Origin: a virus
Virus record (IMG/VR): IMGVR_UViG_3300021403_000006
Coordinates: 1-64,000 of that record
Direction: 5' to 3' (one strand)
DNA: 64,000 nt
Positions 5,685-58,206 of this stretch are shown here, piece by piece (positions within the stretch are counted from its first letter, which is position 1; each line of letters starts with the position of its first letter). The notes below the pieces were generated by a model. The model ran no database searches, was not told the origin of the DNA, and was given only the letters and a program-made list of their open reading frames with translations. Both the position numbers and the translations under genes were made by a program.

Positions 5685-6685
5685 CAGCGCGCCCTCACCA
5701 GGCGGCGGGGCCGGGACGCCTCCGGCTCCTCGACCGGCATCGGCTGCTCCGGCAGGGCGTTGAACACGAGGCCCTCGACGGTCTTGCCCAGGTTGGTCAG
5801 GAACTCGTCCAGCACGTCATGCAGCCGCCCAGGGAAGCGGTCGATGGTCTCCACAAGCTCCCGTATGGCCCTGGTGTCCTCGGTGATCGGACCGGCTGAC
5901 TCGACCGACACAGAGACCACCTCGGTCACCACGGCGACCTCTGGGGCCTGTGGGGTCTCCTCAGGCGTATCTGGGGCCTCGTCAGGCTCTGCGTCGCCCT
6001 GGGCCTCCATGATCTCCTCGATCATGGCGGCGGAGGACTTGCGGGGCGGCAGGCCCAGCTTGAGGGCGATGTCCTTGATGTCGGCCCGGCTCAGCTTCTC
6101 CAGGTCGGATCGGGCGTAGATGGGAAGCTCCTCCTCATCTGCTTCAGCTTCCTTCTCTACGGACTCGACGTCGAGAACGCCCTGGGCGGGCGCAGCCTGC
6201 TCGGTGTTCTCCTCCTCGTTCTCTGCGATGGGTGCATTGCCGTCTGTGAGGTCCCTGACGTCTATACCGGCGTCCAGGAACTTCCCGACGATCTCGCCCA
6301 GGTCCTCCTCACGGTCCTTGTCCCACAAGACCTCCAATATCGCCGTGGGGGAATCGGACAGGATCTGCTCCATCTGCACGAACACATCGGCGACGTGATA
6401 GGTCTTGGCCGCGTCACCAGCGATCTCGGTGAAGCGCCGCCGTCCTTTGTCCGCGGTACCGGTGATGACCTCGTAGGTGATGTCGGACTGCTTGGCCATG
6501 TCGACCAGTTCTTCCATGGTGTCGGAGAACTCGTCGGTGGTGAGGGGGAAGACGAACCGGACGGCATCATCCTCACTCGTGATGCTGGCCTCAATGAACT
6601 CCTCGATCAGGTCGGTCGCGTTGTCGACGTCCATCGTCCCGGTTCCGAGAAACCCGATCGTCACCCCCTCTGCCTTTTGCGCCAT
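5684..6685 (-). CDS. Lsr2-like/SAP-like putative DNA-binding protein
   Basis: The protein has 333 aa. Residues 1-150 alternate strands and helices and could be a Rossmann-like domain (VTIGFLGTGTM, VRFVFPLT, ADVFVQMEQIL). An acidic linker follows. A short helix-extension-helix, YARSDLEKLSRADIKDIALK plus LGLPPRKSSAAMIEEIM, resembles SAP, Rho-N or Lsr2 C-terminal DNA-binding motifs. The C-terminus is RPRRLVRAR, one of the recurring basic tags. The ATG has a strong SD (AGGAGGAG). A nucleoid-type or regulatory role is inferred. Confidence 0.55.
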   Translation of the reverse strand: MAQKAEGVTIGFLGTGTMDVDNATDLIEEFIEASITSEDDAVRFVFPLTTDEFSDTMEELVDMAKQSDITYEVITGTADKGRRRFTEIAGDAAKTYHVADVFVQMEQILSDSPTAILEVLWDKDREEDLGEIVGKFLDAGIDVRDLTDGNAPIAENEEENTEQAAPAQGVLDVESVEKEAEADEEELPIYARSDLEKLSRADIKDIALKLGLPPRKSSAAMIEEIMEAQGDAEPDEAPDTPEETPQAPEVAVVTEVVSVSVESAGPITEDTRAIRELVETIDRFPGRLHDVLDEFLTNLGKTVEGLVFNALPEQPMPVEEPEASRPRRLVRAR

Positions 6686-6770
6686 GGTTGGCTCCTCCTG
6701 TGTGAACTCGTGGAGTCACTCTTAGTCCTCCCAGCGTCGGTTTGTGCCGGTCTGCGGAAAGTTCCTGGGA

Positions 6771-6806
6771 GAAAAAAGACGGTGCCCCTGGGGTGGAAGG
6801 GGCACC
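6771..6806 (-). terminator. Intrinsic terminator for the minus-strand fibre operon
   Basis: GGTGCCCC (6781-6788) pairs with GGGGCACC (6799-6806) over a 10-nt loop. Read on the minus strand the stem is followed by GTCTTTTTTC. The position, just after the stop of the 6885-7193 gene, fits the end of the long minus-strand transcript that includes the baseplate and fibre genes. Confidence 0.8.
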
Positions 6807-6884
6807 GCCTTGACGTCACCGGCTGTGAAAGGTGATGCAAGGGGACTGTATAACGATCAGGTACTAGAAGGCAAGGACTCCCTC

Positions 6885-7193
6885 TTAACGGCGACGGCCA
6901 CGGGTCTTATCCATGACTGCCGTTATCATGTTGTCTCTGTGGCTTCGTAGGACTGTATCGGTGGCGTGCAACAAGGCTGCAAGTCCAGATGCGCCCAGAG
7001 CGATCAGTACCTTTGTGTCGATGCTGCGGTGGGCCACCAGCACCGTCAGTACCCCACAGCAACACAGGTTGACGAGGGTCTTCCACCAGGCCACCTGGTG
7101 CAGCCCGATCCGCCGAGTGACCTCCTTGTACACCTCGGTCAGCTTCATGGACCCGAACCCGATGAGCAGCGCGTAACCCAGATCAGCACCCAT
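6885..7193 (-). CDS. Small membrane protein downstream of baseplate genes
   Basis: The protein has 102 aa from the ATG at 7193, which overlaps the upstream stop (TGATG). It has three hydrophobic stretches (about residues 5-15, 37-52 and 58-72), a basic middle and a basic C-terminus (DKTRGRRR). It is the last gene before the terminator. A holin or membrane-adaptor role is possible, but the lysis genes lie elsewhere in the window, so the function stays open. Confidence 0.55.
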   Translation of the reverse strand: MGADLGYALLIGFGSMKLTEVYKEVTRRIGLHQVAWWKTLVNLCCCGVLTVLVAHRSIDTKVLIALGASGLAALLHATDTVLRSHRDNMITAVMDKTRGRRR

Positions 7194-9745
7194 CAGGACG
7201 GCGTGGCCAGCAGGGTGCTGGTGCCTTGGAGGGCGATGGCCGGGTGGACCCACTGGGTGGGATCGAGCGGGGCCAGGGATGCCTCGGCTCCGAAGATCTC
7301 GGTGTGGCTGCTTCCCATGGGTATCCAGCGGTAAAGCTCGGACTCCAGTCGTTGGATCCTGGGGACCCGGCGACGGTAGTAATAGGTGGCCCCGTGGGAG
7401 TCCTCTAGATAGTCAGAATCTCCAGGGAACATGCTGATGTCCATATAGGGCGGAGTGGACTGTCCCGGTGCCAGCATGGCCGAGTTCAGAAGGAAGATAG
7501 CGTTCTGTGCATACGGGAATCGCACGAACGGATACATGCTGATTGGTTGCGCGCCGGTAATGGGTTCAGTGGGAGGATCCGCCATCCAGTACTGCGAGGG
7601 GTCATTCGGTGGGCACGAGTAGCGGGTCAACGTGGTCGTCAAGGTGTAGGTGGAGAACACCTCGACGTAGGTGTTGTCCGGGTAATACCACCGAAAGCCA
7701 ATCAGCATGACCGCGTTGGAAGGATCTGTGACGGCGAGGTAGTCGGCGTAGACACTGAAGTTGAATGGCTGGAACGCCGGAACCGAGAAGGGACCCAGGT
7801 TGCCGTTGAGTGGGGGCTGGGCGGCGGCGGGGAACCAGTTCCCCTGACTGGTGGGCGCTCCGATGGAGAAGTAGTTGTTGTTCATGGCGAACCATCCCAT
7901 GGTGGGATCGAGCCATGTGCGAGCCGGGTTGACGAGGACCTCGCCGGGGAACCAGTCGCCCTTATCGTTCGGCAATGCCCAGGCGGTAGACGGATTGGTG
8001 ATCCAGCCCTTGGGGATCGTGGGTAGTGGGGTCGTCCAGGCGTTGACCAGACCGAACCACACCATGGCGTTCGGTGCGGCGGCGGCGACCTGGAGCGACC
8101 CGACACCATTCACGGCGGCTGGGGCCAAGTCCTCGGCACTCACGTAGTGGATGTTGAGACCGCAAGTGAAGTTCACCGACGATTGCTGTGGATTGACCGC
8201 CGGACTGATCCCATCGAACCCATTAGCGAAATCGGTCAGCGTGTTGGACAGCAGGTTCGCTGACTGGGGACTGAGGATGACCTTGACGTCACGGGGGTAG
8301 TCGTAGGGCGTGGTACCCGTGTTGACGCCGATGTCGCCCGGCGTGCAGGGCCACAGACCCATGAGGGTCACATAGTCGGCCTCGTTGGCCAAAGCGCCGA
8401 CGATATGAATGACTGGGTAGATGTGGTAGAAGGCGGCTTGCTTACCCGGACCGTTGGGGTACGGGTTGATGGGGGCGGTGACCGTCATGATGGTCCAGTG
8501 CCCTGCTGTCCCGGTGAAGGCCGTCTCCCCCACGATCTGAACGGCTACGCCATTACCGACATCACCCCAGACTGACAGCCGCACCGATCGAGCCGCGCTG
8601 CACCAGAACTGGACCCGCCAGGTCACGAAGCCGGGTCCGTAGGTCTGGGACATAAAGTCGGTGATGGGTACACGAGCCGTGGTGACCCAACGATCGCCCG
8701 TCCCGGTGGCCGCGATCCGTATGCCGCTGTTGTTGTAGGTCGGATTGGGGCCGGGCTGGAAGCCGGGATAGGTCTCCAACGGATTGGTCATCCCAGTAAT
8801 CGACCCGCTCAGCAGATTGGGGATCTGGGTGATGGTCAGACCGGCGGCGTTGACTGGGTTGGGGGGCGGGAAGTGGGTGACCGCCGGAGGCCAGACCTGC
8901 CAGGTGCCGATCGAGGTCTCACCGATGCTGTCATCACGGCAGAGCATCACGTTGTAGCCGTGGTGCGCCAGCGCGGCCATGGGGTAGCTGGTCAGGATCG
9001 AGCAGAACTCGCTGATGCCTCGTGGGCTTCCCTTGAGCTTATAGAGGTGGATGGCGTTGCTGATCAGCGTGCGTTCCTGTTGCATGCCGATCTCTGGCTC
9101 ATTCTGGAGGCCAAGCTGCTGGGCCATCAGCGGCAAGAGCGCGCCGGAGCAGTTCATGGGATCGTTGAGACTCATCAGCGACTCAAGCTCGGTGCGGATG
9201 AAGTCCACCTGGAAGCCCAGCAGTGACAGGAAGCGCTGTAGAGGAGGTTGGGGGTTGTTGACCGGCCACGGGTTGTAGGGGTCCACCAGAACGGCGTCCT
9301 GGTCCCGATACGCCATGGGTAGCAGGCTGTACAAGCGGAAGCCGTAGCCCCAGTTGATGGGCACCAGGGCGATCAGATCGGTGCAGCGAATCCACTCCTG
9401 GCTACTGTTGGACCAGCCCCACATCGTGTAGTAGTAGAAACCACTGCCCAGGCCGGTGTCAGTGAGGTTGGCGGGCCGACCGACCGATTCCGAAAAGGTG
9501 GGCGTGGTGGTCGTATCCCCCCACAGGTACGTGCCGTCATCCTCATCCTGAGGAAGGTTGTGGGCGTTGCGGACGAGGCGCAGATAGGTGCAGTCGGTTG
9601 AGTTCGGCTTCTGCCAGGTCAAGTGAAGGGTGGAATAGTCCAGCGCCATCGCCTGGAACGGGTCCACAGAGAAGTCGGGGCGAACCAGGCTGGGGTCGCG
9701 GCCGAAGCGAGCCTGCCCATAGACATCGATTCCGTAGATACCCAC
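7193..9745 (-). CDS. Large baseplate/tail protein with gpI-like domain
   Basis: The protein has 850 aa. The N-terminal part (about 30-120) looks like a fibronectin type III fold (LDYSTLHLTWQKP). Residues of about 140-260 contain LLPMAYRDQDA, a helical stretch with QRFLSLLGFQVDFIRTELES, and LYKLKGSPRGISEF; this pattern matches the P2 gpI-like phage tail protein domain of the baseplate periphery. The rest (about 280-850) is beta-rich and Trp/Pro/Asn-rich, as in fibre or host-recognition regions. It follows two paralogous fibre genes and the gpJ-like gene, the usual wedge order. Confidence 0.75.
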   Translation of the reverse strand: MGIYGIDVYGQARFGRDPSLVRPDFSVDPFQAMALDYSTLHLTWQKPNSTDCTYLRLVRNAHNLPQDEDDGTYLWGDTTTTPTFSESVGRPANLTDTGLGSGFYYYTMWGWSNSSQEWIRCTDLIALVPINWGYGFRLYSLLPMAYRDQDAVLVDPYNPWPVNNPQPPLQRFLSLLGFQVDFIRTELESLMSLNDPMNCSGALLPLMAQQLGLQNEPEIGMQQERTLISNAIHLYKLKGSPRGISEFCSILTSYPMAALAHHGYNVMLCRDDSIGETSIGTWQVWPPAVTHFPPPNPVNAAGLTITQIPNLLSGSITGMTNPLETYPGFQPGPNPTYNNSGIRIAATGTGDRWVTTARVPITDFMSQTYGPGFVTWRVQFWCSAARSVRLSVWGDVGNGVAVQIVGETAFTGTAGHWTIMTVTAPINPYPNGPGKQAAFYHIYPVIHIVGALANEADYVTLMGLWPCTPGDIGVNTGTTPYDYPRDVKVILSPQSANLLSNTLTDFANGFDGISPAVNPQQSSVNFTCGLNIHYVSAEDLAPAAVNGVGSLQVAAAAPNAMVWFGLVNAWTTPLPTIPKGWITNPSTAWALPNDKGDWFPGEVLVNPARTWLDPTMGWFAMNNNYFSIGAPTSQGNWFPAAAQPPLNGNLGPFSVPAFQPFNFSVYADYLAVTDPSNAVMLIGFRWYYPDNTYVEVFSTYTLTTTLTRYSCPPNDPSQYWMADPPTEPITGAQPISMYPFVRFPYAQNAIFLLNSAMLAPGQSTPPYMDISMFPGDSDYLEDSHGATYYYRRRVPRIQRLESELYRWIPMGSSHTEIFGAEASLAPLDPTQWVHPAIALQGTSTLLATPS

Positions 9746-27631: not shown

Positions 27632-28089
27632 TGCGTACCGTTCATCTCTACTCGATGCTCTTCGACGGCAGTCAAGATTTGTGACACCGCTGTGCTGATT
27701 TGCTCGTTGAGTTTGCCGTAGGATCGGTCCTCTTTCCGCACGGCGTTCTTCCTTGTGTACGCAGCTTGTTTCCCCAGATTCCGAAGCCTGGTCCTGGTGT
27801 CACGAGACTGCTTACGCAAGGGTCGTACCGACTGCATCTGCTCCTCGCCCGCTGGTAAGTACTGGAAGACGTTCTTCTGCTCCTCTGGATCGTATGAGCA
27901 GTTGGTGATGCATGCCCCTCGGTCCTGCGCCCAGTGACGAACGGCGGACATATCCGTGGTCAACGAGGTGTCCACCTCTCGCTCCAAGGCGTACGCAAGT
28001 CCGGTATACGTGTACTTCACATGGGGGTGATCCCTGAGGAAGTCATAGAGTTCCTGACGTCGACTTTCGACGTAGTCGCTATCGCTCAT
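27628..28089 (-). CDS. Winged-helix-like protein, 153 aa
   Basis: The first 80 residues (QELYDFLRDHPHVKYTYTGL, AYALEREVDTSLTTDMSAVR, then NVFQYLPAG) resemble a winged helix. The rest is a basic, helical stretch (TRTRLRNLGKQAAYTRKNAV). It overlaps the gene before it by ATGA. It is probably DNA-binding. The function is unknown. Confidence 0.5.
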   Translation of the reverse strand: MSDSDYVESRRQELYDFLRDHPHVKYTYTGLAYALEREVDTSLTTDMSAVRHWAQDRGACITNCSYDPEEQKNVFQYLPAGEEQMQSVRPLRKQSRDTRTRLRNLGKQAAYTRKNAVRKEDRSYGKLNEQISTAVSQILTAVEEHRVEMNGTH

Positions 28090-28880
28090 CGCTGCTCCTC
28101 GGCAAGTAGTTCTGACAAGGAAGCATCGGTGATGCCGCCCTCGTTCAGATAGGCCGTCAGGAAGTCGAGCGTTGCCTGTAGTCGGTTGAGCAACCCTTCG
28201 ATGGCGTCGCGGACATCTGTGGTCGGCGTCCCGCTCTTGGCCAGGACCCTCACGGCATAGTCGAACTTGTCGTTGCCGTCCTGCATGGCCTCGATGGCAT
28301 CAATGGCTGTCGCTTCGCCTGGATCAGTCGCATCACGCGCTGGTGTGTTCTTCTTTCGCTTCAAGGCGATCCGAAAGTCGTTGGCGGAAACGGGATACCG
28401 GCTCCCACGCTCACGCTTCCGGGCAATCGAGGCGGTGGCCTTCATCCAGGCGATCTCGTCAATCTCGCCGTCCTCCAGTTCAGGCAGGCCAAGGTCACCA
28501 GTTCGGGCGGCCTCGCAGAGGACGGCCAAGACTTGTCGCTTCCGCTCGTCCTTCCCGGCCTCCTGGTGAGTCCTAAAAGCCGCCTCTTCAAAGCGGTCTT
28601 CCGGTGACCACGCCACTGCAACCATCCGCAAATCCTTCAGGGACGCCGGGGTGTACGGCTCTCCCGCTGGGGTCTCGACACCTTCCTCCAAGAGGCGGTC
28701 GGCTGCCTCCCTGAGCAAAGCAGCGACGTCGCTACCTTGATTTGCCGACTCCGACTTCCTGTCTCCTCCTTTTGCTTGGGCTGGGATATCTGCCGCCAGG
28801 GCTTCAGCCAGTTTCCAGGCCCCGGTTGACTCACCTCCCATGCGTTGCTGGGCTGCCTTCACGATCCGATCGAAAGCCAT
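28086..28880 (-). CDS. Early protein with GDRKS motif, 264 aa
   Basis: The ATG at 28880 has a perfect SD (AAGGAGG). The first part has AKGGDRKSESANQGSDVAAL, a Gly/Asp/Lys motif I associate with phage early or regulatory proteins. Then come helical segments and a basic region (IARKRERGSRYPVSANDFRI). The codons for NQGSDVAALLRE carry the second copy of the palindromic repeat found beside terminase. The function is unknown; a plasmid or replication-initiation-like regulator is possible. Confidence 0.5.
   Translation of the reverse strand: MAFDRIVKAAQQRMGGESTGAWKLAEALAADIPAQAKGGDRKSESANQGSDVAALLREAADRLLEEGVETPAGEPYTPASLKDLRMVAVAWSPEDRFEEAAFRTHQEAGKDERKRQVLAVLCEAARTGDLGLPELEDGEIDEIAWMKATASIARKRERGSRYPVSANDFRIALKRKKNTPARDATDPGEATAIDAIEAMQDGNDKFDYAVRVLAKSGTPTTDVRDAIEGLLNRLQATLDFLTAYLNEGGITDASLSELLAEEQR
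28708..28742 (-). repeat. 35-bp repeat, copy related to the palindrome at 37541-37564
   Basis: The reverse complement begins AATCAAGGTAGCGACGTCGC and ends TGCTTTGCTCAGGGA. It matches 37538-37572 in 32 of 35 positions, including the 12-bp palindromic core AGCGACGTCGCT. It is coding here. The orientation is inverted relative to the other copy. Confidence 0.7.
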
Positions 28881-28970
28881 CGGAACCTCCTTCTCCCTGC
28901 GATGCTCTACAGCATTAGCACTCGCCAATCGTGGATTCGCCCTGCTGCGGAAAATAGTCATGAAAAAGTT

Positions 28971-35634: not shown

Positions 35635-37320
35635 GTGGTCAAGGGGCTGGATCCGCCCCCACGTAGCGTGGATTCGGTGACGTACGTGGCCGATCCGGCC
35701 CTAGAAGACGATGTAACTGCATCGGACGACGACCTCTCGGAACTATCCGAGTTCGCGCCCGCCGTCCTCGATCCTAGTGATCAACAGTTTGTGGACCGCC
35801 TTGTGGATAAGGTGTGGGAGTTCACGGTCATCTTCTCCGGGGTGGAGATGTTCCCGTACCAGGCGGCGCTCGGTCGGCGCATCATCGAGTCGGTGATATC
35901 TGGGGACGGGGCCACCATCACCGGAGAGCTTTCCCGCCAATCCGGCAAGACCGAGGTGGTCGCCAACGTCGCGGCCAGCCTGATGATCTTGCTGCCCAGA
36001 TTGGCGGAGATGTTCCCGGAGTTCGACCCGCTACAGAAGTTTGCCCGTGGGGTAATGATCGGCTGCTTCGCCCCGGTGGAACAGCAGGTGGAGACCCTTT
36101 TTGGCCGCGTGGTGGACCGGCTCACCAGCGAGCGGGCGCAGGAGATGCTGGAGGACCCCGACATCGATGACCAGGTGAAGCCGGGGTCGCGCCGGGTCCG
36201 GCTCAAGAAGTGCCAGAGCTTCTGTGCCATGCAGACCGCCAACCCCAGGGCCAAGATCGAGTCCAAGAGCTATCACGTCATCTTCGTTGACGAAAGCCAA
36301 TCCGTAGACGAGTACGTCCTCAACAAGTCCATCACGCCCATGGGTGCCTTCTACCTGGCCACCATGGTCATGACCGGCACCCCCGACGTGACCAAAGGCG
36401 TCTTCTACAAGACGATCATGTTCAACAAGCGGCAAGAGCTACGCCGCGGTTCCAAGAAAAATCATTTTCGATTCGACTGGAAGTTCTGCGCCAAATATAA
36501 CCGCAACTACGCCGCCTACATCCGGGGCGAGGCCATGCGGATCGGCGTCGACAGCGATGAGTTCCGGCTCAACTACGCCCTGGAGTGGTTGCTGGAACGG
36601 GGCATGCTCATAACCGAGACCCGGATGGACGAGCTTGGCGATCCCACCATGCCCATCCTTCCGGCCTACTGGCGCAGCCCCCTCATCGGCGGCATCGACT
36701 TCGCCCGCAAGATGGACTCCACCGTGGTCACCGTCATGTGGGTGGACTGGGACCGGCCCGATGAACTGGGCCTCTACGATCACCGGATCCTCAACTGGCT
36801 GGAGATGCACGGTGAGGAGTGGGAGGAGCAGTACTTCCGCATCGTGGACTTCCTCTCCAACTACTCCGTTGTGGCGCTAGGGGTGGACGCCCAGGGAGTT
36901 GGCGATGTTGCTGCTGACCGGCTGAAGCGCCTCCTGCCAAACATCCAGGTCGAGCCACTGTCCTCCCAGATCGGGGATCAGTCCCTCCGGTGGAAGCACC
37001 TCCAGCAGTTACTCCAGCGCGGCCTGCTGTCCTGGCCCGCCCACCCCAAGGCCCGCAAGACCAAGACCTGGAAGCGATTCCGCCAGCAGATGATCGACGT
37101 CGAAAAGAAGTACCAGGGCGCTCACCTCCTGGTGGAGGCCCCCAACGAGGCCGGGGTCCATGATGACTATGTCGACAGCCTGGCCTGCGCCGTGATCATG
37201 AGCAAGGCCCTCATGGTGCCGGAGGTCGAGATCAGCGCCAGCCCCTGGGCCTCGACGCCACGGGTCACCCGCCCAATGCGCCGCCCAAGACGCCAGACAG
37301 AGGGTGCAGGACGTCGGTGA
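35635..37320 (+). CDS. terL: Terminase large subunit
   Basis: The protein has 561 aa. The ATPase has GELSRQSGKT (97-106) as Walker A and VIFVDES (215-221) as Walker B with catalytic Glu, followed by the coupling motif VMTGTPD. The RNase H-like nuclease has D355 in GGIDFARKMDST, the GVDAQGVGD strand, and a late Asp in HDDYVDSLA. The GTG start has a poor SD and lies just after the inverted repeat. No small terminase subunit was recognised. The 3' end overlaps a minus-strand frame by 56 bp. Confidence 0.9.
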   Translation: MVKGLDPPPRSVDSVTYVADPALEDDVTASDDDLSELSEFAPAVLDPSDQQFVDRLVDKVWEFTVIFSGVEMFPYQAALGRRIIESVISGDGATITGELSRQSGKTEVVANVAASLMILLPRLAEMFPEFDPLQKFARGVMIGCFAPVEQQVETLFGRVVDRLTSERAQEMLEDPDIDDQVKPGSRRVRLKKCQSFCAMQTANPRAKIESKSYHVIFVDESQSVDEYVLNKSITPMGAFYLATMVMTGTPDVTKGVFYKTIMFNKRQELRRGSKKNHFRFDWKFCAKYNRNYAAYIRGEAMRIGVDSDEFRLNYALEWLLERGMLITETRMDELGDPTMPILPAYWRSPLIGGIDFARKMDSTVVTVMWVDWDRPDELGLYDHRILNWLEMHGEEWEEQYFRIVDFLSNYSVVALGVDAQGVGDVAADRLKRLLPNIQVEPLSSQIGDQSLRWKHLQQLLQRGLLSWPAHPKARKTKTWKRFRQQMIDVEKKYQGAHLLVEAPNEAGVHDDYVDSLACAVIMSKALMVPEVEISASPWASTPRVTRPMRRPRRQTEGAGRR

Positions 37321-37543
37321 TGGCGTTGTTCATCTTCGTCGCGGCCCCGGCGATCGCCGGTTCAGCCTCGGACTCCAACTGCGACTTGGCCGACTGAGCG
37401 CCAAGCTGGGCCGAGTACGGGGTGACGGCCTGCTGAAGATCGGCCTGGGCCGGGCCACTCGGATTGCCAGCCGTGCCCGTCGCCCTCTGCATGGACGTCT
37501 GCGCTGCCCACAGGTCGGACACAGCCTCAGGGTACCCAATCAA
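37265..37543 (-). CDS. Tape-measure-like fragment on the opposite strand
   Basis: The frame is open from 37588; the first standard start is the TTG at 37543, without an SD. The 92-aa product ends with AQLGAQSAKSQLESEAEPAI, then AGAATKMNNAITDVLH and PLSGVLGG. It aligns over about 46 residues with AQLQAQSAQSQVETQAEPAL, ending LLHAVNPLASLFGG, in the tape measure protein encoded at 56455-56600, with roughly 26 identities. The protein is more conserved than the DNA, which supports real coding. It overlaps the terminase 3' end by 56 bp. The function is unknown. Confidence 0.6.
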   Translation of the reverse strand: MIGYPEAVSDLWAAQTSMQRATGTAGNPSGPAQADLQQAVTPYSAQLGAQSAKSQLESEAEPAIAGAATKMNNAITDVLHPLSGVLGGALGG

Positions 37544-37564
37544 AGTAGCGACGTCGCTACTTTG
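37541..37564. repeat. 24-bp perfect palindrome
   Basis: CAAAGTAGCGAC is followed directly by its reverse complement. Both strands encode the peptide QSSDVATL. Within 37538-37572, 32 of 35 bases match a site inside the gene at 28086-28880. It may be a binding or recombination site. Confidence 0.8.
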
Positions 37565-37639
37565 CTCCGGGATGTTCCACGTTGAACGCTAAATGAGTTG
37601 ATCACTTATATCTGAGGTACTGGGTGGTCTCATTGGGGG

Positions 37640-37666
37640 AAAAGGCCGTGGCTAGCCTTTTCTTTT
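37640..37666 (+). terminator. Probable intrinsic terminator after terminase
   Basis: AAAAGGC (37640-37646) pairs with GCCTTTT (37655-37661) over an 8-nt loop, and CTTTT follows. It lies between terminase and the next plus-strand gene. It has a short T run on the other strand too, so it may act both ways. Confidence 0.55.
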
Positions 37667-37692: not shown

Positions 37693-38094
37693 ATGAGCCT
37701 TGGCCCGGAACCGCAGTACCCAGAAAGAGGTAGGTACGCCTACGACCGGACTATGGGTCCCGATCAGCCTGGCGGTCGTGGGCCTCTTCGGTTCGAAGAG
37801 GGCCTCGCCACCGACACTGATCTGCCCAGGGACTTCACACGAGGCATGACCGAGTTCATGCTCTCGGCACCGGGCCGGATCGGTCACGTCGATCCGAACA
37901 CCCAGTTCAAGATGCCGGAGGAGACCATGGCGGAGCGCTCCCATGTTGGCTCCGCGGCCTGGATCGACGCCCCCACCATGCTCGGCGAGTTCGCCCACGG
38001 CAGCTTCACCGACCAGGCTGAGGTCCGCTACGAGGAAGTCGTCCGCAATGGGCGCATCCAGAAGAGGCGGGCACCCGAAGTCGTCAGCGACTGA
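37693..38094 (+). CDS. Hypothetical head-region protein, 133 aa
   Basis: The ATG has a strong SD (AGAAGGAG). The protein is hydrophilic, with Pro/Gly-rich first 40 residues and short helices later. Its last base overlaps the next ATG (TGATGG). It sits between terminase and portal, where small head or regulatory proteins are common. No family was recognised. Confidence 0.55.
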   Translation: MSLGPEPQYPERGRYAYDRTMGPDQPGGRGPLRFEEGLATDTDLPRDFTRGMTEFMLSAPGRIGHVDPNTQFKMPEETMAERSHVGSAAWIDAPTMLGEFAHGSFTDQAEVRYEEVVRNGRIQKRRAPEVVSD

Positions 38095-55093: not shown

Positions 55094-55241
55094 CACCATC
55101 ACCCCCTTCGACCTCCTCTACCTCCAGTACCAGCGGATCTCGGAACGGTTCCCCGGTTGGGGTCTGTCCGAGATCAAAGCCATGCCCCACTTCGAACGTC
55201 GCCATTGGGTCGACGTAGTACTGAGCAACGTCGATGGCTGA
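55086..55241 (+). CDS. +1 frameshift extension of the tail chaperone
   Basis: The frame encodes FANTITPFDLLYLQYQRISE, then RFPGWGLSEIKAMPHFERRH and WVDVVLSNVDG, ending in TGA at 55239-55241. This has the look of the second tail chaperone of many phages. Upstream in this frame a TGA lies at 55023-55025, and no ATG, GTG or TTG occurs before the ITPF motif. Therefore it must be made by frameshifting. A slip of tRNA-Phe from TTT to TTC at 55085-55088 fits. The product would have about 322 aa. The TGA overlaps the tape measure ATG. Confidence 0.75.
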   Translation, partial: FANTITPFDLLYLQYQRISERFPGWGLSEIKAMPHFERRHWVDVVLSNVDG

Positions 55242-58206
55242 CGGTTACGGTGCCGGGCTGTTTGACTCCCAAGGCCCCAAGGATTTTGCCTCCGCGGTCG
55301 GGGGTATCTCGACCGAACTGAACTCGGTCAAGGGGGCCTTCACCTCCTTCGGTACTGAGGCCAAGAGCGCCCTGTCGGGCGTCTCCAGCGCCGTCGATGG
55401 CCTGATCCAAAAGCTGAGCCAAGTCACTAGCCAGCTACAGCAGGGCCTCACCGCGGCTGGCGGAGGCGGCGGTGGTATGGGTCAACCCACGTCTCCCAAG
55501 ACCAGCGGAGGCGGCGGGAGCGGACAGACCGGCTCCAACGTCAACGCCCAGGGCTGGTCACCTGACGCTGCGCCCAAACCAAACGCCGGAACCGGTGCCG
55601 GTGCGCCCCTGACCGGGATGGAGCAGAACACGGCTGGTGACGGGCCGACTCAGTTCCCCAAGCAGGAACCAGGCAGCGCCCAGCCCGGCTCTACTCCTTC
55701 CCAGACCGGTGGCTTCCTGGGGATGGGTCAGGGCAGTGCGTCCACCATGGGGCAACGGGCTATGCAGTCCATGATCCCTGCCGCCATCGGCGCAGCCACT
55801 AATGCGGTTGGGGGCCTGACGAGTACGGCGGTGCAAGGGGCCAGCATCGGTCAGATGTACGCCCCGGCCTTCGGCGTCAGTTCCCGCAGCCTCTATGTAA
55901 TGCCGAAGGGCATCCTGGCCCAGAACCCCCAGGACTACGCTCAGTCCAACTACTACGCCATGCAGAACCTGGGCATGGCCCCAGGCACCCAGAACTGGTC
56001 CTCCATCATGGGACCCGGCGGTGGTCTCAACCAGTTGATGACGCTGGATCCCGGTCTAACCCGCCAGCAAGCCGCCCAGAGCTTCGGCAACATGATGGCC
56101 CCGCAGACCTTGAACCAGCAGATGGCGTTCGGTCTCAACTTCAGCCCCGGCGGGAAGATGGAGACGCCACAGCAGCAGTACCAGCAAATGTTTCAGCGGC
56201 TCACCATCAACGTGCCTGGTGGCAAACCCACCGGGGCACAAGTCGAAGCCTGGCTACGTCCTGGTGGTCCCTGGTCATCGAACCTGGCCTCGGCGGGCTG
56301 GCAGCCAGGTAGTGCGGAGTACCAGGGCTTCGTGAACTACGCCCTCACCCAGGTGGGAATGCAGGGCCAAGGCAAGTCACTGGTCGGGTCGAATATCAAC
56401 CTCGGTACGACGTCCGGTGCCCAGCAAACCCCACTGGGTAACACCCCGGCCTACGCTCAGCTTCAAGCCCAGAGCGCACAGTCCCAGGTCGAGACCCAAG
56501 CCGAACCGGCTCTGGCCCAAGCCGCTAAAGACCTCAACGAGGCCGCGACCCAACTCCTCCACGCTGTCAACCCGTTGGCCAGTCTCTTCGGTGGCGGCGG
56601 GCCAGGAGGAATGGTCGGATCCATCGTCGGCATGGGCGGTATGTATATGGGCGGCAAGCTCCTGGGCAAAGTGGGCGGCAAGGTTCTCGGCTCAGTTGGC
56701 GGCAAGGTTCTCGGATCTTTTGGCGGCAAGCTCGGCAAGCTCGGTGATCTCCTGGGTGGCGGCACTGCCGCCGAGGCTGAAGGAACGGTCGCCAAGACGG
56801 CAGGGAAGGGGATGTTCGGCAACCTCCTCAAGGGAGGTCTTGGCAATCTGTTTAAAGGCGGGGCGGGTGCTGCGGGAGCAGAGGCAGGAGAAGTTGGTGG
56901 TATAGAAGCAGCCGGTGCAGGCCTCGACGCCACAGGTGTAGGTCTGCCGGTTGGATTGGCGTTGGGGGCTGTCGGTTTAGGTCTCGGCTTCCACAAGCAG
57001 ATCGGCAGCTTCATTGGTGGACTCTTTGGTCACCACAAGAAAAAGTCCACCGCCGCACCAGATGGTACTGAAACCGGTGCGAGCGATGACGTGTCCTCCC
57101 TCCTGGCTTCTAAGCCTGCCCCCAACAGTCTCCTGGCCTGTCTGACTTCACAGGTCAAGGCCAACGACAACACCGTCATCAGCGTCCTGATGAACAAGTC
57201 ATCGGCTATGCCCAGAATCGGTGGCGGAGGGGCGATGGGTGGCGGTCGTATACAAACCATGAGCGCCTTTAGCCCCCTTGGCACAGGCGGCGGAGGCGGA
57301 GGCGGCGGAGGCGGAGGGGGAGGCGGAGGCGGAGGCGGCGCATCTGGGAGTGCCACGGGGTCTGCTCCTTCGCAGCCTTACACCTGGACCTACAAGAGCG
57401 GCGGCATCGGCCCCCAAGACATGTCTGGGATGTTCATGACGACATCCTCCAGTGGCGGTGGCGGCGGTGGTGGCGGTGGTGGTGGCGGTGGTAATGGCGG
57501 CAGTTCTGGCCCAACAACCCTCAGTGGCAGCGGCAACGTCCAACAGGCGTACAACTATTTCCTTAGTAAGGGCCTCAAGGACTACATGGCGGCTGGCATC
57601 GTAGGCAACTTGGCCCAAGAGTCCGGGGTGAACCCGGCGTCCACTTCGCCAGGTGCAATGGGCATTGCTCAGTGGACACCACCGACTGCGCTGCAAGCCT
57701 GGGCCAAACAGCAAAACCGTAGTGCCACCGACATGTCAACTCAGTTGGACTTTCTGTGGATGCAGATGAACTCGACCGAGAAGGGGGCGCTCGTGGCCTT
57801 GCAGGCCTCGACCGACGCCGCCTCTGCCGCCCAGGCATTTGAGCAGCAGTACGAACGGGCCGGAATACCGATGATGCAGAATCGGGTCAAGTACGCCCAG
57901 ACCGTTCTGTCAACCAAGGGAGCCAGCTACGCCCGTGGCTCCCAGTTGATCGACCGCACCCAGCTTGCCCTCCTGCATGCCGGTGAAGCGGTGGTGCCTG
58001 CCGCCGACAACTACTCCGCCTCCCCTTACAACAAGAACGGAGCAGGCAACGGCGGTGGAAACACCGTTCACCTCAACTTCAAAGCGGGAGCCGTTGTGCT
58101 GCAAGTGCCGCCCTCTTCCTCCCAGCAGGACATGGAGAACCTTGCCAACCAGTTCGTCGCGGCCATCTCCAAGCCCGCTGTCCTCGCCGGAGTCAGGTCC
58201 ACGTAA
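55234..58206 (+). CDS. Tape measure protein with tail lysozyme domain
   Basis: The protein has 990 aa, Ala/Gly/Gln-rich. Helical segments with AQSAQSQVETQAEPALAQAA (about 410-430), a Gly-rich hydrophobic part (about 450-600, for example GMYMGGKLLGKVGGKVLG) and two long Gly runs precede a lysozyme-like domain (about 768-890): NYFLSKGLKDYMAAGIVGNL, then AQESGVNPAS (likely catalytic Glu) and GAMGIAQWTP. It sets tail length and probably opens the wall at injection. About 46 residues are repeated in the minus-strand gene beside terminase. Confidence 0.88.
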   Translation: MADGYGAGLFDSQGPKDFASAVGGISTELNSVKGAFTSFGTEAKSALSGVSSAVDGLIQKLSQVTSQLQQGLTAAGGGGGGMGQPTSPKTSGGGGSGQTGSNVNAQGWSPDAAPKPNAGTGAGAPLTGMEQNTAGDGPTQFPKQEPGSAQPGSTPSQTGGFLGMGQGSASTMGQRAMQSMIPAAIGAATNAVGGLTSTAVQGASIGQMYAPAFGVSSRSLYVMPKGILAQNPQDYAQSNYYAMQNLGMAPGTQNWSSIMGPGGGLNQLMTLDPGLTRQQAAQSFGNMMAPQTLNQQMAFGLNFSPGGKMETPQQQYQQMFQRLTINVPGGKPTGAQVEAWLRPGGPWSSNLASAGWQPGSAEYQGFVNYALTQVGMQGQGKSLVGSNINLGTTSGAQQTPLGNTPAYAQLQAQSAQSQVETQAEPALAQAAKDLNEAATQLLHAVNPLASLFGGGGPGGMVGSIVGMGGMYMGGKLLGKVGGKVLGSVGGKVLGSFGGKLGKLGDLLGGGTAAEAEGTVAKTAGKGMFGNLLKGGLGNLFKGGAGAAGAEAGEVGGIEAAGAGLDATGVGLPVGLALGAVGLGLGFHKQIGSFIGGLFGHHKKKSTAAPDGTETGASDDVSSLLASKPAPNSLLACLTSQVKANDNTVISVLMNKSSAMPRIGGGGAMGGGRIQTMSAFSPLGTGGGGGGGGGGGGGGGGGGASGSATGSAPSQPYTWTYKSGGIGPQDMSGMFMTTSSSGGGGGGGGGGGGGNGGSSGPTTLSGSGNVQQAYNYFLSKGLKDYMAAGIVGNLAQESGVNPASTSPGAMGIAQWTPPTALQAWAKQQNRSATDMSTQLDFLWMQMNSTEKGALVALQASTDAASAAQAFEQQYERAGIPMMQNRVKYAQTVLSTKGASYARGSQLIDRTQLALLHAGEAVVPAADNYSASPYNKNGAGNGGGNTVHLNFKAGAVVLQVPPSSSQQDMENLANQFVAAISKPAVLAGVRST
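57287..57345 (+). repeat. Gly-codon tract, poly-glycine linker 1
   Basis: Mostly GGC, GGA and GGG triplets encode an unbroken run of about 19 Gly within the tape measure gene. A second run of GGC/GGT codons lies at about 57452-57495. They separate the membrane-like part from the lysozyme domain and are probably flexible linkers. Confidence 0.75.

Follow-up and report, generated by a model that had tools for sequence, protein, structure and literature searches.

Small phage proteins that combine a constant signal with a variable body, or that target the tape measure protein (TMP), have been described in a few systems. The internal proteins IPI-III of phage T4, which differ greatly among relatives, have a 10-residue capsid targeting sequence (PMC9026906). 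The superinfection exclusion protein Ltp is a lipoprotein that binds the TMP (PMC3952083). Two conserved domains of phrog_3170 occur together in Mycobacterium phage Sebata gp107, which is encoded in a head gene region. Leaderless genes are common in Mycobacterium tuberculosis, where a TANNNT motif has its centre 7-12 bp upstream of transcription starts (PMC3898074).

We analysed a 64,000-nucleotide stretch of viral DNA (positions 1 to 64,000 of IMG/VR record IMGVR_UViG_3300021403_000006; hereafter the window) from an uncultured, contractile-tailed phage group. A small gene lies antisense at the 3' end of the terminase gene, and its frame is homologous to residues ~391-454 of the TMP of the same genome (Table 1). 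The small protein and the TMPs of this phage group are homologous over a 44-residue segment, in which they have their conserved residues in common. The small protein differs from the TMP in its length (85 versus ~990 amino acids), in being encoded on the opposite strand with its own promoter and tag, and in having no lysozyme domain. It is too short to span a tail, and its gene adjoins terminase rather than lying between the tail tube/chaperone and hub genes.

Table 1. Positions in the window of the small antisense gene, its flanking elements and the tape measure gene.
Feature	Position	Strand	Basis
Terminase large subunit	35635..37320	+	Pfam Terminase_6C
Antisense small gene of 85 aa with GTG start, ending within terminase 3' end	37265..37522	-	Family kept beside terminase, sole open frame, pN/pS 0.41-0.52
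Overlap of small gene and terminase 3' end, 56 bp, opposite strands	37265..37320	-	Coordinates
TMP-like helix module TPYSAQLGAQ...ITDVL, 39 aa	37307..37423	-	Profile-profile match to TMP
Constant N-terminal tag MSDLWAAQTSMQRATGT (family D.WAHQTSMQRATG)	37472..37522	-	Invariant residues, tag profile
-10 box TACCCT, 6 nt before GTG, putative leaderless promoter	37529..37534	-	TANNNT in 30/31 distinct relatives
Insert of ~80 bp between -10 box and conserved upstream box, holding palindrome CAAAGTAGCGACGTCGCTACTTTG (37541-37564)	37535..37615	.	Comparison with relatives
Conserved box GGTACTGGGTGGTC, shared divergent promoter region	37616..37629	.	Exact or near-exact in many relatives
-10 box TAGCCT, divergent promoter of 133-aa head-region gene	37653..37658	+	CTAGCCT at same place in most relatives, then AGGAG/GGAGG site
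Next gene, 133 aa, constant neighbour, head region	37693..38094	+	tblastn, 77-94% identity in close relatives
TMP, 990 aa, C-terminal Phage_lysozyme2 domain	55234..58206	+	Pfam and PHROGs
Source segment in TMP, residues 404-442	56443..56559	+	Kept in all seven TMPs compared

The initial annotation, made from the window alone, described an open minus-strand frame at 37265-37588 that overlaps terminase by 56 bp and matches the TMP, and all of this held. The Smith-Waterman score of the antisense frame against the TMP is 133, compared with 45 ± 6.5 (maximum 79) over 2000 shuffles; the runner-up frame in the window scores 54. An independent tblastn comparison gives an E value of 1.3e-10. A profile of the antisense family matches the TMP of this phage and those of six relatives (E values 2.6e-9 to 2.9e-15), with no non-TMP match below E 0.8 and no match to reversed frames below 0.39. 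Profile-profile comparison of the small family with the TMP returns a probability of 97.6% (E 3e-12) over 44 columns. Structure predictions for the small protein and for TMP residues 150-470 are helical, at a confidence too low for them to be relied on (pLDDT 55 and 43).

Within a 39-residue core, the small gene and the TMP are identical at 23 of 39 amino acids (59%) and 74 of 117 nucleotides (63%), so the earlier claim of lower similarity in DNA than in protein was inexact. Core matches nonetheless fall 24, 32 and 18 of 39 over codon positions 1, 2 and 3, which argues for conservation at the protein level. Residues common to small-gene modules and TMPs follow the pattern TP..QL..QS..S...S..EP..A.....LN.....L. 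In the TMP, segment 404-442 forms a local conservation peak and is followed by a poorly conserved Gly-rich stretch. The TMP gene also encodes a long polyglycine stretch (window positions 57030-57356), with polyproline on the opposite strand.

We identified 46 loci in a terminase search of IMG/VR, 40 of which (L001-L038, L041 and L042) we treated as close relatives. These are mostly metagenome fragments; one (L020) ends before the tag, leaving 39 that cover the site. All 39 encode the small gene antisense at the terminase 3' end. The tag pattern detects 36 of them, including L032, which is cut before the start, and the other three (L016, L022 and L034) are divergent members. Several loci are near-identical and L001 matches the window itself, so upstream regions and starts were counted over 31 distinct sequences, which include the new loci L088 and L106. 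The small gene was not detected beside terminases of ~52% identity (L039, L040 and L044-L046), and the annotations of Streptomyces phages LuckySocke and BRock show no such gene beside terminase. A protein-level search did not find the small protein in isolated phages, similar DNA was not found in phages and plasmids, and no member was confirmed in a bacterial genome collection. Terminases ~50% identical to this one occur in Streptomyces phages and, together with the promoter type described below, suggest that the hosts are probably actinobacterial.

Comparison among relatives establishes the antisense frame as a conserved coding gene under selection. The frame is open and intact in all distinct relatives; over 26 distinct genes, stops in the other five frames total 35-61, and these frames are open in at most 7 genes. 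Across 14 module-bearing genes, the tag has a pN/pS of 0.41 and the part of the module that does not overlap terminase one of 0.52; both values are rough, as synonymous sites are close to saturation. The third codon position is the most variable. With the codon-position matches, these ratios uphold the initial annotation's view that the frame is under selection; stops in homologues, which it had named as possible counterevidence, are absent from every distinct gene. Its other suggestion, a decayed duplicate, or more broadly a neutral remnant of a TMP fragment, would fit the repeated loss of the module among relatives but is refuted by the intact frame, purifying selection (pN/pS ~0.5) and the conserved start, promoter and tag, and we regard it as scarcely credible.

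The same data bear on whether the locus acts through regulatory antisense transcription, in which an RNA opposite terminase would damp terminase and the peptide would be secondary. A transcript from 37522 would run antisense into terminase, and the payload varies more than the promoter does. However, the tag has accumulated many synonymous changes while being kept at the protein level (pS 0.64, pN 0.26), the reading frame is open in all distinct genes, and there is no Rfam match, on which ground a non-coding RNA was also rejected. We therefore consider an antisense regulator very improbable. The small protein has no PHROGs or NCBIfam match and no significant Pfam match, and a search of open-licence papers found nothing relevant on TMP mimics or antisense terminase genes. 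As judged from these databases and that literature, the family appears to be undescribed.

Comparison of 31 distinct relatives fixes the start at GTG 37522-37520, giving a protein that begins MSDLWAAQTSMQRATG. The initial annotation had seen no good standard start and had pointed to a TTG (37543) and to protein-like residues before it (NIPEQSSDVAT). We rejected this start and leader: the residues upstream are not conserved, and NIPEQSSDVAT comes from an insert peculiar to this phage that contains a perfect palindrome. A TANNNT motif lies 6-7 nt before the RTG in 30 of the 31 distinct genes, compared with a background of 0.5% over every RTG in these loci; binomial probabilities for this enrichment assume independent relatives and so are only indicative. 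This is the placement expected of leaderless actinobacterial genes whose transcription starts at the RTG (rule from PMC3898074). Nine genes do not share the common upstream box and have unrelated upstream sequence, and eight of these keep the motif (TATGAT, TATCTT, TACCAT, TATTCT, TACGGT, TAGCCT, TACGCT and TAGGCT). The persistence of the motif at 6-7 nt despite unrelated upstream sequence indicates leaderless expression, with the promoter of the small gene on the opposite strand to the head and tail genes.

Most relatives have the box ACCACCCAG immediately before GTACCCT, and in most the two divergent -10 boxes stand back-to-back, ~32 bp apart; they are farther apart in the window through its ~80-bp insert. 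The 24-bp palindrome in this insert has a second copy, with two mismatches, at 28716-28739 within a 291-aa gene (28086-28961, minus strand). The copy in that gene reads NQGSDVAALLREA and the plus strand at 37541 reads NQSSDVATLLRD, and the palindrome may be a piece of displaced coding sequence and not an operator. A AAGTGATCAACTCA(C/T)TT-like inverted repeat lies near the small-gene promoter in the window (37590-37608) and in the upstream regions of L002-L005, and is possibly an operator in these closest relatives. We dropped a candidate ParB-type parS site (TGTTCCACGTTGAACG), which is present in one copy and is not kept in most relatives.

The most conserved part of the small protein is not the TMP-like part but the 12-15 residue N-terminal tag, in which W5, A6, T9, M11, R13 and A14 are invariant among 14 aligned proteins. 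What follows the tag differs widely. About half of the distinct genes carry the TMP-like helix, others carry a terminase-antisense tail, and a few carry unrelated sequence. L016, L017 and L024 have near-identical promoters and a common tag, with three different payloads between the tag and the terminase end, and module loss distinguishes L006 from L013. On the terminase tree, module presence requires 9 changes, at least 5 of which are forced by supported branches. In these comparisons, the TMP-like part is dispensable and is swapped among close relatives. Because it has been lost or replaced in many lineages, the module is not essential for TMP function there.

Small-gene modules are 52% identical to one another, slightly above their 48% identity to TMPs, and a tree, though weak, does not reject a single origin. 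The segment is present in every TMP and in only some of the small genes, which makes one old duplication out of the phage's own TMP the simplest history. Recurrent copying from each phage's own TMP was rejected, as module and TMP from the same genome are not specially similar (59, 51 and 49%, in the only three pairs with a module).

Sequences in four relatives connect the locus to phrog_3170. In L042, the tag is fused to a domain that corresponds to the C-terminal part of this family; in L011, L037 and L026, a same-strand gene immediately upstream matches its central domain. Both domains are absent from the window's own small gene. The extra gene in the latter three relatives lies on the minus strand, with the small gene on one side and the head gene on the other (L011 2964-3881, L037 1312-2076 and L026 11804-12598). 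It is homologous to Sebata gp107, contains the motif HDFFGHA...GEEAAW..H..M.S..AREAMTSETRGQNSYLNY and ends in QLRLF or similar. We take this ending to resemble a sliding-clamp binding motif. The L042 terminase (6496-8955, plus strand) contains an in-frame, intein-like insert of ~270 aa directly after an FDW.(F/Y)C motif.

A constant tag joined to a hypervariable remainder would also fit virion cargo, in which the tag acts as a loading signal into the head or tail and the rest is swappable cargo ejected into the next host. The phrog_3170 fusion and neighbouring genes are consistent with such a role, and the T4 internal proteins provide a precedent for a small accessory protein of this design (PMC9026906). 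The likeness to T4 is one of sequence organization, however, and the tag is not homologous to the T4 signal. Across the window and the relatives' loci, many of them partial contigs, the tag profile detects only this gene above noise, and no scaffold or other cargo carries the tag there. On this search we rejected the idea that the tag is common to other virion proteins. As the tag is not common to several proteins, we do not file the small protein with the T4 internal proteins. The small gene also has a promoter of its own that lies opposite the late genes, and we consider a cargo function rather unlikely.

We tentatively favour a different reading, to which we give a little less than an even chance: the locus would be an independently transcribed accessory gene encoding a tag and a payload, here a TMP helix that would bind the TMP's partner, compete with it or co-assemble with it. 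The tag would dock the small protein on a partner that does not vary among these phages. The TMP-like helix would engage whatever the TMP segment engages, whether the TMP itself, a tail protein or a membrane-side injection partner, and the small protein would thereby become a decoy or a co-assembling partner of the tape measure. The initial annotation had proposed a small mimic of the TMP that perhaps binds the chaperone or controls tail assembly. Its mimicry idea remains live, given a real gene with a selected TMP-derived segment. Because the module is dispensable, it is now unlikely to act as an essential chaperone-like factor in tail assembly, the case for an essential part in chaperone binding is weaker, and an accessory decoy, co-assembling protein, virion cargo or exclusion factor would fit better.

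As an exclusion factor, the helix would occupy a site needed by an incoming TMP, or bind that TMP, and block DNA entry by related phages; payload swapping would then reflect an arms race. The TMP is a known target of Ltp-type exclusion proteins (PMC3952083), which are likewise small accessory phage proteins with a likely interaction network that includes the TMP. The small gene is also a fast-changing accessory gene with its own promoter, in phages with a common conserved TMP segment. However, Ltp is a TMP-binding lipoprotein, whereas the small protein copies the TMP, and on inspection of its sequence no signal peptide, lipobox, membrane segment or cysteine is visible. Moreover, versions without the module retain the tag. 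We regard exclusion as improbable and rank it third, after the favoured decoy or partner and virion cargo, although the data do not decide among them. A broader and doubtful proposal is that the locus is an undescribed site of exchangeable payloads, in which different C-terminal modules are swapped in behind a leaderless promoter and constant tag opposite terminase, and at which a captured TMP helix serves as a diffusible mimic against competing phages or is loaded into virions.

Standard annotation can easily miss genes of this kind, which are short, antisense, partly over terminase, begin with GTG and have no ribosome-binding site. Comparison among relatives places the start and promoter with single-base precision and reveals a fast-swapping accessory locus within a head gene block that is otherwise conserved. 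The constant tag is a candidate docking or packaging signal. The free copy of a conserved TMP segment offers a ready probe for what that part of the TMP binds.
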